Below, piece after piece: positions 18,825-21,951 of a stretch of 23,628 nt of DNA. Source of the stretch: a virus; IMG/VR virus record IMGVR_UViG_3300031841_001434, positions 1 to 23,628 of that record. The stretch is one strand, 5' to 3'. The notes beneath the pieces were generated by a model. The model worked only from the letters and a program-made list of their open reading frames with translations. It was not told the DNA's origin and made no database searches. Both the position numbers and the translations under genes were made by a program. How positions within the stretch are numbered: the stretch's first letter is position 1; every line of letters begins with the position of its first letter.

Positions 18825-18943
18825 TGATAACGAAGGGGATAGTTTTGGTTGGTTTTATTGTCCTTCTTGTTTACCAACCTCTCTTAAATAACGTCATGTA
18901 TAGGCTATCCCCTTCTCCTCACATACCAAAGGATATAATATAA
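18824..18943 (+). CDS. 39-residue predicted single-pass membrane protein
   Basis: A tiny ORF with TAATG overlaps at both ends. Residues 5-21 (GIVLVGFIVLLVYQPLL) form one hydrophobic segment after a lone lysine, followed by a polar, Pro-rich tail. It may insert in the inner membrane; it could be a holin-like or superinfection-related peptide, but there is no direct evidence. Being coupled directly to the Cas4-like gene argues it is translated. Confidence 0.55.
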   Translation: MITKGIVLVGFIVLLVYQPLLNNVMYRLSPSPHIPKDII

Positions 18944-19668
18944 TGGATATACAAAAAGTTTATGACGAATGGTTGCGTTCTGAAAATGAATTGCATTACA
19001 GAAAAAGATATGAGGGTAAGGAAGATTGGTTTCATGCATCAGCATCAGGGATGTGTATGCGTAAACATTACTTTCAGCATGTTGCAGGACTAGAACCTAA
19101 GCCAGTCAACGACGATACTATGAGATTATTTAGACTAGGAGACTTAGTGCATGAAGATATACAAGAAGCCGTAAGAAACTATGCAGATAAGAATGGTGCT
19201 CAGGTTATGATTGAAAGAGAGATACGAATACCTGAAGTAAATGTAAGAGGTTTCTTTGATTTACTTTTAGTAGAAGATGGGGCAATGATTGATATAAAGA
19301 CTTGTAATGCTTGGAAATGGAAGAATCTATTTGGTAGAAACCCTGATCCAAACCCAGCTATAAACTACTATTTACAGCTTGGAACATACGGATGGTGGTA
19401 TGAAGAAGATTCGGGGAACAAATTGAAAAAGCTTGCGTTACTATACTATAATAAAGATAATAGTAGAATGAGAGAAAAAGTCATACCGATATCATATATA
19501 GATAAAGCTAAAGAATATTGGTATGATGTAAAGAAACGTTTTAAAAAAGGAAACCCACCTATAGAACTTGGGATTGCACCAGTATATAATTGGGAATGCA
19601 ATATCAAATACTGCAACTTCTATGAAGTGTGTGGGGGTGGATTAAAAGGAAAGGGAACAGACCTATGA
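18943..19668 (+). CDS. Cas4/RecB-like PD-(D/E)XK nuclease with Fe-S cysteines
   Basis: This 241-residue protein matches the Cas4-like branch of RecB nucleases. Visible in order: C38 in SGMCMRKHYF, H70 in GDLVHEDIQ, D106 in GFFDLLL, D117-I-K119 in MIDIKTC, Q145/Y149 in QLGTYGWW, and C219, C224, C230 near the end. Four cysteines in this arrangement are the signature of a 4Fe-4S cluster. Such enzymes degrade or trim DNA ends, giving single strands for recombination. No CRISPR genes are near, so a phage recombination or replication role is inferred. It starts a run of recombination-type genes. Confidence 0.8.
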   Translation: MDIQKVYDEWLRSENELHYRKRYEGKEDWFHASASGMCMRKHYFQHVAGLEPKPVNDDTMRLFRLGDLVHEDIQEAVRNYADKNGAQVMIEREIRIPEVNVRGFFDLLLVEDGAMIDIKTCNAWKWKNLFGRNPDPNPAINYYLQLGTYGWWYEEDSGNKLKKLALLYYNKDNSRMREKVIPISYIDKAKEYWYDVKKRFKKGNPPIELGIAPVYNWECNIKYCNFYEVCGGGLKGKGTDL

Positions 19669-20069
19669 GTGAAAAGAAACCCGATTGGGATAAAATAACT
19701 GAAGGTAAGATAAGGCATGGTATAGCCGTAGAAGCTTTCAGCAAGGGCATGGAACTCAATGCTGATAACATGAGGACTATGGAAAGATGGGTGCAATTTG
19801 TGATACATGGTTACGATGGTATCAAAGAGAAGTTAGATGCACATCAACAAACAATGTCAGAGCAAGAGACTATAGATAAGGTTAAAGATACCTTTGATGG
19901 TGAAGAAGTAGACACTGATAAGTACATTAAAGATGCGATAGAAAAAGCGGCTGTTGGTCTTGACAGAAAGAATAAGAACATCGTTATGGCTAGACTCAGG
20001 GATGGTAAAATTAATACAGATAACCTACAAGCGTGCCTAGACAGAATAGAAGTACTGAAGAAAGGATAG
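19665..20069 (+). CDS. conserved-type protein of the recombination cassette
   Basis: This 134-residue protein starts at ATG 19665, overlapping the nuclease stop by ATGA, with AAAGG upstream. It opens with KPDWDKITEGKIRHGIAVEA, a pattern I recall near phage recombination and single-strand-binding genes. The rest is charged helix (IKEKLDAHQQTMSEQETIDKV and beyond). A helper for the nuclease or the SSB-like protein on either side is inferred. No catalytic motif is visible. Confidence 0.7.
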   Translation: MSEKKPDWDKITEGKIRHGIAVEAFSKGMELNADNMRTMERWVQFVIHGYDGIKEKLDAHQQTMSEQETIDKVKDTFDGEEVDTDKYIKDAIEKAAVGLDRKNKNIVMARLRDGKINTDNLQACLDRIEVLKKG

Positions 20070-20070
20070 T

Positions 20071-20547
20071 ATGGTTGACATTGGGGATGCTTACTATCCA
20101 AGTGATTTGGATGATAATAGACTTTCTGTACCAAAAGGCAGATATACTGCTGTGATAACAGATCTTTCTATATCTGAGAATGTCAGGTTTGGCAAACATA
20201 TTGCTGATGTATTTAAACCAGTGTATGCTATTGACAAAGAAAGTCATCCCCAATATGATGGTTGCTCTGTGATAGATAATGGCATTTTCAGATATAAGAA
20301 GGTAGGGGATTCACCATACGACCATAGTAAAAACTGGGGCTTTGCAAAATTCTTGTCCGTAATGGGACTTCGCAAAAAGGATAGGGAAGGTGGGCAACTG
20401 CCTTTCCTATACCTAAATGATATAAAAGGTGCTGTTGTATTGATAGATGTATTTATGAAACGTTTTATAAATGATTTGGATTCTGAAATAGCTTACCCAG
20501 TATGTAGAACAATTCAATTACAAAAACCTGCGGAAGTACCATTCTAA
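20071..20547 (+). CDS. probable single-stranded-DNA-binding (OB-fold-like) protein
   Basis: This 158-residue protein has AAAGGAT upstream. The layout suggests a beta-barrel: PKGRYTAVITDLSISENVRFG, then VFKPVYAID, VIDNGIFRYKKVG and later KGAVVLIDVFMKR. The C-terminus ends in KPAEVPF, reminiscent of the acidic ...PF tips by which SSB proteins recruit partners. It lies between a Cas4-like and a PD-(D/E)XK nuclease gene, a usual place for phage SSB. The assignment rests on this pattern and context, not on a clear family match. Confidence 0.5.
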   Translation: MVDIGDAYYPSDLDDNRLSVPKGRYTAVITDLSISENVRFGKHIADVFKPVYAIDKESHPQYDGCSVIDNGIFRYKKVGDSPYDHSKNWGFAKFLSVMGLRKKDREGGQLPFLYLNDIKGAVVLIDVFMKRFINDLDSEIAYPVCRTIQLQKPAEVPF

Positions 20548-20999
20548 TGAAGTTCAATGAGTCCTTATCAAGTGGTAAACAATCTGAAAACATTATATTA
20601 AAAATGGTACAGAATAAATATCCTAAAGCATATATCAAAGAAGGGTATCATAAAGAATATGATATAATGATACCTGAGATAAATAAAACAATAGAGGTAA
20701 AGAAAGATTTTAAATCACAATATACTGGTAATGTAGTTATAGAAATGGAAATGAATAATAGACCATCAGGCTTACAAACTACCACTGCTGATTGGTGGGT
20801 ATTTCATTTAGATGAAACAGAAATAGTGTGGATCACATTAGAAAGATTAAAAGAAATGGTAGAGCTTGAGGGTTATAAACTAGTAGAGTTTATTGGTGAT
20901 GGCGATGAGATAAGTAAACAAGCTTACTTAGTACCTAAGAAAGATTTATATATGTATAGCAATAAAATAAAAGAAATAAATAAGGATGATACATTATGA
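20547..20999 (+). CDS. PD-(D/E)XK nuclease-like protein
   Basis: This 150-residue protein shows the core of a PD-(D/E)XK nuclease: E15 in the first helix, D39 in KEYDIMI, then E50-V-K52 in TIEVKKDF, followed by TGNVVIEMEM and PSGLQTTTADWWVF. This order matches a recurrent phage family with a resolvase-like fold. Such enzymes cut DNA with two metal ions. The start overlaps the SSB-like stop as TAATG. A Holliday-junction or flap specificity cannot be read from the sequence. Confidence 0.72.
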   Translation: MKFNESLSSGKQSENIILKMVQNKYPKAYIKEGYHKEYDIMIPEINKTIEVKKDFKSQYTGNVVIEMEMNNRPSGLQTTTADWWVFHLDETEIVWITLERLKEMVELEGYKLVEFIGDGDEISKQAYLVPKKDLYMYSNKIKEINKDDTL

Positions 21000-21256
21000 A
21001 GAAACAAAAGTGTGTAGCAAATATTAAGTTCTCACTACAAGAAGTAGAGCTTATGATAAACTCACTAGAGAATTTAATCAGGATAGAGATACCATTTCAG
21101 GATAGTGCTGACTGGAGAAAGCCTTATGAGATGTTATTAAAAGATCTAAAAAAGATTAAGTCTGATATGAAAAACAAGATAGAAGAAGCAATGTTAAATA
21201 GAGAACATCAAAAGACTTCTACAATATATGGTGAAGTATGTGAGGTATGCGAATGA
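20996..21256 (+). CDS. hypothetical helical protein
   Basis: This 86-residue protein is coupled by ATGA to the nuclease upstream and to the resolvase-like gene downstream; AAGGAT precedes it. Long charged helices dominate (VELMINSLENLIRIEI, then LLKDLKKIKSDMKNKIEEAM). The end has CEVC. Function unknown, probably tied to the recombination genes. Confidence 0.68.
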   Translation: MKKQKCVANIKFSLQEVELMINSLENLIRIEIPFQDSADWRKPYEMLLKDLKKIKSDMKNKIEEAMLNREHQKTSTIYGEVCEVCE

Positions 21257-21579
21257 AGAACAAAGAAAATGTAAGAAGAGGTAGAAGAGCGAGACAGCGT
21301 GGAGCAGAACTGCAAAGGCAAGCTGTACGCATGGCAAAAGATTTAGGACTAGAGGCATTTAATCGTGATAGGGGTGGTGCACAACATGAACAAGGCGACA
21401 TAGAAATTGAAGGTCATTGGTATGGGTGCAAAAGAAGAACTCGTATTGCTCAATGGCTCAAGCCTGAAAAAGAAGAAGAAGGAGTTGTAGTTAGAGAAGA
21501 TAGGGGTAAGCCTTATATTGTATTAGACTATGAATACTTTTTAAATATGCTATCTATAATGAAAGAGATGGCAGACTAA
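21253..21579 (+). CDS. resolvase-like PD-(D/E)XK endonuclease
   Basis: This 108-residue protein starts at ATG 21253 (GAGG upstream, ATGA overlap); ATG 21247 is an alternative. The basic opening RRGRRARQRGAELQRQAVRMAKDLG is followed by RDRGGAQHEQGDIEI and YGCKRRTRIAQWLKPEKEEEGV, matching a phage family of small Holliday-junction-resolvase-like nucleases. The core D49 and K59 are present; the usual acidic residue two before the Lys is G (GCK), which is how I recall this family, so another acidic residue may serve. Inferred role: resolving branched DNA before packaging. Confidence 0.65.
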   Translation: MKNKENVRRGRRARQRGAELQRQAVRMAKDLGLEAFNRDRGGAQHEQGDIEIEGHWYGCKRRTRIAQWLKPEKEEEGVVVREDRGKPYIVLDYEYFLNMLSIMKEMAD

Positions 21580-21591
21580 TTGTTAACAAAC

Positions 21592-21673
21592 GAGGTGGTC
21601 TACTTTATAAATTTAAAATGAGAGACTTTTAAATGAAATTGGTTGGCGAACTAAAGATAAGGTAGACCATCTC
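21592..21673 (+). ncRNA. three-way-junction leader RNA before SSB-like gene
   Basis: Helix P1 pairs 21592-21608 (GAGGTGGTCTACTTTAT) with 21657-21673 (ATAAGGTAGACCATCTC): 17 pairs, of which 15 are Watson-Crick and 2 are G-U. Helix P2 is 21611-21618 with 21627-21634 (8 bp, 8-nt loop). Helix P3 is 21640-21644 with 21649-21653 (5 pairs, GGCG loop). Junction strands are AA, GAAAT and AAG. The AAGGAG of the next gene starts 5 nt after P1. I know no RNA family that it matches. Confidence 0.65.
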
Positions 21674-21692
21674 ATAATAAGGAGAAAACAGC

Positions 21693-21905
21693 ATGGCTGA
21701 ATACAAACAAAAAGATCAGTCTTTCAAGCTTTGGAAGAATGATTACAAAAAGGAAGGCGATAAGAAGCCTGATTACACTGGTACTGGATTAATCAATGGA
21801 GAAGAAAAACAAGTCTCTATGTGGATTAATGAAGATAAGAATGGAAAAAGATACTTATCTGGGTCTATCAGTGAGCCTTACAAGAAAAAAGACAGCCCTT
21901 TCTAG
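21693..21905 (+). CDS. small SSB-like protein
   Basis: This 70-residue protein has a strong AAGGAG. Its layout, SFKLWKNDYKKEGDKKPDYTGTG, then INGEEKQVSMWINEDKNGKRYLSGSI, matches a recurrent small phage protein with an OB-like beta unit that begins with an aromatic Phe/Trp and ends in a short polar tail. The C-terminus KKKDSPF resembles the ...PF tip of SSB proteins. It is preceded by the structured leader and followed by a strong terminator, so it has its own regulated end of the operon. Function is inferred. Confidence 0.6.
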   Translation: MAEYKQKDQSFKLWKNDYKKEGDKKPDYTGTGLINGEEKQVSMWINEDKNGKRYLSGSISEPYKKKDSPF

Positions 21906-21929
21906 GGTTTTCAGTCTTGTTTAATAATG

Positions 21930-21951
21930 AGGGGGCTAGTGCCCCCTTTTT
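21930..21951 (+). terminator. strong rho-independent terminator
   Basis: AGGGGGC-TAGT-GCCCCCT forms a 7-bp, nearly all-GC stem with a 4-nt loop, followed by TTTT then ATT. It lies about 25 nt after the SSB-like stop and closes the recombination operon. It is one of the few GC-rich patches in the window. Confidence 0.9.

Follow-up and report, generated by a model that had tools for sequence, protein, structure and literature searches.

A conserved structured RNA leader with a UUGGC-capped hairpin precedes ssb in uncultured phages and may act as a translational operator

Production of single-stranded DNA-binding protein (SSB) by a phage must keep step with single-stranded DNA. To our knowledge, the one well-studied circuit of SSB control is gene 32 of phage T4, and the specificity of its pseudoknot is still not understood. 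In the T4 gp32 operator, a folded element precedes a region with less structure, which contains the ribosome site (PMC535899, PMC3014915). The pseudoknot overlaps segG in T4, while segG is absent in RB69 (PMC535899). Another T4 operator, that of gene 43, is a hairpin with a conserved loop that lies 5' of the ribosome site and is bound by the gene's own product (PMC3014915). The products of DUF2815 genes are phage SSBs of the Enc34/T7 gp2.5 type (PMC5686142), and the DUF2815 RNA motif (RF03084) is a candidate leader of such genes, as judged from its name and from a model that reaches the AUG. A further structured RNA, STAXI, is often found near ssb genes (PMC2864571).

The locus described here belongs to a stretch of viral DNA of 23,628 nucleotides (IMG/VR record IMGVR_UViG_3300031841_001434), hereafter called the window. 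As the original prediction had it, the gene run at 18943-21905 contains a sole sizeable gap, which measures 113 nt (21580-21692) and lies immediately 5' of ssb. The features of the region are the following:

21247..21579, plus strand: upstream gene, RusA-like Holliday-junction resolvase family (phrog_244, E 1.7e-11)
21592..21608, plus strand: 5' arm of the outer helix P1 (GAGGUGGUCUACUUUAU), from the fold and from compensatory changes
21611..21634, plus strand: P2 hairpin, stem 21611-21618 / 21627-21634 (8 pairs) with an 8-nt loop
21639..21654, plus strand: P3 hairpin, stem 21639-21644 / 21649-21654 (6 pairs), from the fold and from covariation
21643..21647, plus strand: conserved UUGGC apical motif, kept in relatives
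21657..21673, plus strand: 3' arm of P1 (AUAAGGUAGACCAUCUC), from the fold and from arm-swap pairing
21679..21684, plus strand: Shine-Dalgarno sequence AAGGAG, outside P1
21693..21905, plus strand: ssb, gene for a 70-aa ssDNA-binding protein (phrog_18154, E 5.5e-6)
21929..21948, plus strand: intrinsic-terminator-like hairpin 3' of ssb

The downstream gene had been described as SSB-like, and phrog_18154, a family of phage ssDNA-binding proteins, is matched both by the protein of the window and by all 21 aligned members of the SSB alignment (A6). The C-terminus of the protein reads ...SPF, and SPF-like C-termini are common among SSBs. Its AlphaFold2 model is all-beta (pLDDT 76.9). Comparison of the predicted fold with the PDB yielded no significant match; the top rows were PC4/MoSub1 ssDNA-binding domains at E about 1, and this resemblance of the model is only a hint. 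Among viral models, small uncharacterised phage proteins were matched with E values down to 9e-5, and one Vibrio phage SSB at E 0.16. The hairpin at 21929-21948 would terminate the ssb transcript; two overlapping terminator matches are found in the region, where 0.3 are expected.

When positions 21592-21673 were folded, both the minimum free energy and the centroid structure were the closed three-way junction that had been proposed, with a stability of -28.6 kcal/mol (z -5.96). Comparison with shuffled sequence had been set beforehand as a test capable of refuting the fold; the native sequence proved better, and its stability was reached by none of 200 dinucleotide shuffles. The computed outer helix is identical to that originally drawn, with 17 pairs of which two, 21595/21670 and 21604/21661, are G-U; as DNA, the arms are 88% complementary. 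The distance of 5 nt between the end of the helix and AAGGAG also agrees. The inner hairpins had been given 8 and 5 pairs: the former figure stands for P2, and P3 folds with 6 pairs instead of 5. Inspection of the window by eye revealed no pseudoknot partner for the loop, and the nested P1, P2 and P3 helices account for the covariation described below.

The view that the leader belongs to no named family and lacks a hammerhead core is upheld by Rfam 15, in which no family, hammerhead, other ribozyme and riboswitch models included, is matched above any curated cut-off. At relaxed thresholds, the leader gives only low-scoring, sub-threshold hairpins (mir-299, 22.5 bits vs 67). The motif list of Weinberg 2017 (224 RNAs) was compared through Rfam only. 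In the open-access literature we found no description of the element. Membership of the DUF2815 RNA was rejected, with 19.0 bits against a gathering threshold of 41.2; the match consists only of a flanking GGUAGAC and the letters of the ribosome site, and skips the structured part of the model. Membership of STAXI was likewise rejected, as its Rfam model has no match in the window or the 14 relatives; unlike the element described here, STAXI is built of pseudoknots in tandem and occurs near DNA-handling genes of several kinds. The gene 43 operator also differs, being a single hairpin of 16-18 nt with a UAAC loop that precedes a polymerase gene. By role, the nearest systems are the gene 32 operator, the DUF2815 RNA and STAXI, none of which has the same defining structure.

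Protein searches retrieved 80 viral loci with the SSB as query and 61 with the product of the upstream gene. A leader of the same kind lies immediately 5' of ssb in about 60 of the 80 SSB loci, and searches with distant SSBs added about nine more contigs. Altogether, about 70 uncultured phage contigs carry the leader directly 5' of a homologous ssb. DNA similarity to annotated phages was not detected, and we found no annotated phage record with the element. The SSB relatives in annotated phages show 33-49% identity; four such phages leave no room for a leader, and the 205-nt gap that precedes ssb in MW202481 (MW202481.1; L350:996-1200) harbors no clear counterpart. That gap holds an ORF without annotation, about 69 aa long (MSFLTTEQRERIK...).

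Detailed work was done on 54 copies, which comprise 36 distinct outer helices and form nine clusters with mutually dissimilar P1 arms. Examples of such arms are GAGRUGGYYY, GGGCARGCU, GAUGGGUUAG, GUGGGCUAGG, UAUGAUGAUU, GGAAYGYUGU, GGGGCAUUGU and AGGGUGUUGG. A covariance model built from the other large group, with the window's group excluded, recovered the window at E 3.5e-5. When model R1 was run over 25 whole records, at most one strong place per record was detected. In one leader, L007:2873-2982, P2 is greatly enlarged, giving a 110-nt element in which P1 and the UUGGC hairpin are retained. Separately, a near-perfect long inverted repeat beside a contig end (L335:2100-2208), with spurious miRNA matches in Rfam, is probably an assembly hairpin.

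An inverted repeat that adjoins a RusA-like gene might be a DNA-level element: a cruciform or a site of recombination or replication, on which the neighbouring Holliday-junction resolvase might even act. The original prediction had favored RNA on account of the G-U pairs, and the relatives agree. All 54 copies are more stable than their shuffles (mean z -4.9, weakest -2.2), and the mRNA strand folds more stably than the opposite strand in 54 of 54. Of 360 outer positions of P1, 349 are paired. Non-Watson-Crick cells are 40 G-U, 2 A-C and 9 others, a G-U/A-C ratio somewhat inflated by the preference of the helix finder for G-U, although most arms are still anchored by at least 10 pairs. In a DNA palindrome G-T and A-C would be equally expected; hence the figures of 40 and 2 indicate RNA. 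A DNA cruciform was rejected on account of the strand asymmetry, and DNA-level elements are strongly disfavored, to the point of being hardly credible; besides, the element stays with ssb in loci where the resolvase is not a neighbour.

The arms are conserved and covary in homologues, as had been anticipated: compensatory changes are present in all three helices, and in each of four separate alignments the count of covarying changes is above both controls. Across representatives of the nine clusters, cognate arms pair at 83 of 90 positions, while 20000 arm swaps reached a maximum of 79. In one alignable group, seven pairs have double changes, a number found in none of 500 shuffles, and sliding by one position halves the pairing. 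The double-change pairs of the window's own group are distributed as three in P2, one in P1 and one in P3. Among 12 distinct relatives, all six pairs of P3 have changed on both sides, with a covariation score of 0.725 (vs 0.217), which 0 of 500 shuffles reached. The recurrence of the fold in relatives, with compensatory changes, places it beyond chance. The element is thus a selected RNA structure in which P1 closes P2 and a UUGGC-capped P3, and it is almost certainly a conserved cis-acting leader of the ssb mRNA.

In about 30 copies, a small ORF of about 70 aa (...TRW...GWLKKDLN) crosses the element and has its stop codon within the 3' arm of P1. Such an arrangement raises the possibility that coding constraint in this ORF produced the helix as a side effect. 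The structure is, however, kept in more than 20 copies, the window included, that have an interrupted frame or none. In six copies, a small ORF reaches 15-36 nt into the element before its stop; in another four it is the resolvase gene that extends 4 nt into it; and no ORF lies over the element in the window's group or in the L127/L129/L336-L340 group (L040 was too short for a judgement). Furthermore, within the ORF group replacements of TRWL by TRWF in the 5' arm have their counterparts past the stop codon, in the remainder of the 3' arm. For the window's group the coding explanation was rejected, the frame being broken in the window itself, and for the element in general it is extremely improbable. 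Retention of the RNA where the ORF is short or gone suggests that the ORF either grew over, or withdrew from, a preserved RNA. A small ORF of 55-74 aa (..GAAHQRMKELE..) and unknown function, represented by L012:2757-2975 and homologues, lies between the resolvase gene and ssb in most relatives, whereas the window's group lacks it; the RNA element codes for the C-terminus of its product.

Besides UUGGC, nearly no nucleotide of the element is invariant, the junction included. The automatic match detects UUGGC and one further, variable base in the P3 loop of 48 of the 54 copies, and most others have UUGGU. The stems that carry the loop vary (UACG/CGUA, GCG/CGC, GGU/ACC, AUAUGG/CUAUGU), and in some ORF-overlapping leaders the P3 stem is short, with two contiguous pairs beside the loop. 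Nearly all close relatives possess P2, which is missing in the most distant leaders (L072/L074, L127 and L129), so that the deep core consists of P1 and the UUGGC hairpin. Ligand sensing, one of the roles initially contemplated, is less likely because nearly no sequence is conserved besides the UUGGC loop. A riboswitch or small self-cleaving ribozyme of a new class might account for a three-way-junction leader without an Rfam match; it is a very unlikely explanation, given that, besides UUGGC, hardly any junction nucleotide is invariant, that P2 is dispensable, and that the corresponding Rfam models are silent.

An invariant loop on drifting stems suggests that the loop serves recognition, most simply by a protein, and with ssb as the neighbour gene the first candidate ligand is SSB. 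From these sequence features, SSB may well be the ligand. Instead, another protein, of phage or host origin, or a base-pairing RNA could bind an operator of the same anatomy through its UUGGC loop. Near-invariance of the loop while the helices drift is typical of recognition loops in general, and a host or other phage protein suits the anatomy equally as ligand. We nevertheless regard this alternative as rather less probable: the element accompanies ssb in particular, and autoregulation of a phage SSB has precedent (PMC535899). No GCCAA-type complement was seen by eye in the leader of the window or in the first codons.

The element keeps a nearly fixed distance from the ssb ribosome-binding site. 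From the end of P1 to the core of the GGAG-type Shine-Dalgarno sequence there are 6-7 nt in 50 of the 54 copies and 17 nt in the other four, and the start codon lies 16-20 nt, or 28-29 nt, from P1. We infer that the leader is likely to act on the initiation of ssb translation. It had been suggested that the helix could block the ribosome site; this is not supported for P1, as the Shine-Dalgarno sequence lies outside it and is predicted to be mostly unpaired in most copies. With the ribosome site mostly open, repression would require a bound protein, as it does in T4. The 3' arm of P1 can make 3-5 pairs with the Shine-Dalgarno sequence in most leaders, and a competing-helix switch is therefore conceivable: if heat, SSB or a ribosome that translates the upstream ORF melted P1, the pyrimidine-rich 3' arm would hide GGAG. 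In the copies with an upstream ORF that stops in the 3' arm, about 30, its ribosomes must open P1. Yet the pairing is no stronger than that of shuffled arms (mean rank 0.44, with 1 of 36 below 0.05), and no ORF is found there in the window's group. Such a switch is improbable.

The reading that we prefer, drawn by analogy with T4, is that the leader may well control ssb translation in cis, as an operator that is probably autoregulatory like that of gene 32 and has another fold. When free SSB exceeds single-stranded DNA, SSB (as first candidate) would recognise the UUGGC hairpin on the P1/P2/P3 scaffold. The bound protein would then cover the A-rich unpaired stretch and the Shine-Dalgarno sequence (AUAAUAAGGAGAAAACAGC), and further translation of ssb would be shut off, following the logic of T4 gp32 on gene 32 mRNA. 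The likeness to the T4/RB69 gene 32 operator has several sides: both are leaders of phage ssDNA-binding genes, with a fold 5' of an unpaired stretch (here predicted to be mostly unpaired in most copies) that holds the ribosome site; in both, leader sequence has diverged while structure is kept; and in both, the structure overlaps an upstream frame in some phages and not in others. There are also differences. T4 gene 32 has an H-type pseudoknot about 67 nt upstream and UUAAA repeats; here, a three-way junction (or P1 and P3) with a UUGGC loop ends 5-7 nt before the Shine-Dalgarno sequence. The platform is A-rich, mostly unpaired by prediction, about 18 nt long and without UUAAA repeats, compared with more than 40 nt in T4, and the SSB family (phrog_18154) differs from gp32. 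A tentative extension is that the UUGGC hairpin on its three-way-junction scaffold might be a new RNA-recognition module, used by an SSB family that is not known for binding specific RNA.

The association with ssb persists where the upstream gene differs. In L127, L129, L336, L337 and L339, a different gene lies 5' of the element and ssb is still directly behind. This observation bears on another explanation, namely that the element is an RNase III-type processing site or an mRNA stabiliser, with P1 being cut or shielding the 5' end of the ssb message. The T7 intercistronic sites are a precedent for RNase III processing, and a long, near-perfect helix between co-directional genes, with a terminator after ssb, would fit. 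The explanation is unlikely, however: it leaves unaccounted for both the UUGGC loop, far from P1, and the nearly fixed spacing of 6-7 nt, and the element remains with ssb though the preceding gene changes. Close homologues of ssb that are devoid of the element were also detected, in L028, L030, L046 and L227 (a contig from a Marinimicrobia bin).

Two other SSB groups, L061/L258 and L341-L343, have a long P1 that closes hairpins before ssb and is devoid of UUGGC. The P1 arms of these leaders (L341-L343, L061/L258) are CAGGUGGUGUU/AACACUACCUG and GGGAUACAG/CUGUAUCCC; the loop region of L061 reads GGUGGCUU, and the leader of L341-L343 lies about 115 nt before position 1501. The leaders of L061 and L341-L343 are either variants or independent inventions.

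The element would be a new RNA family of uncultured phages, absent from Rfam. An unrelated SSB family with a covarying leader and a near-invariant loop offers a second, sequence-rich system for SSB-RNA recognition. If the leader is indeed a module recognised by SSB, structured autoregulatory ssb leaders would have arisen independently in several phage lineages, represented by the T4 pseudoknot, the DUF2815 RNA, the UUGGC leader and the variants in L061 and L341-L343.

An element with a similar P1 and UUGGC may also be present within the 3' end of a MazG-like gene in three related phages (L128:5840-5913, L136:5753-5823 and L132:5495-5560). This gene closes the operon, and the element is some 1.7 kb 3' of ssb, which in these phages is itself leaderless. 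The fold is absent from about 40 wider homologues of the MazG-like gene, outside the three close ones. This element may be a displaced copy or may have arisen by chance; three compensatory changes are observed among L128, L136 and L132.
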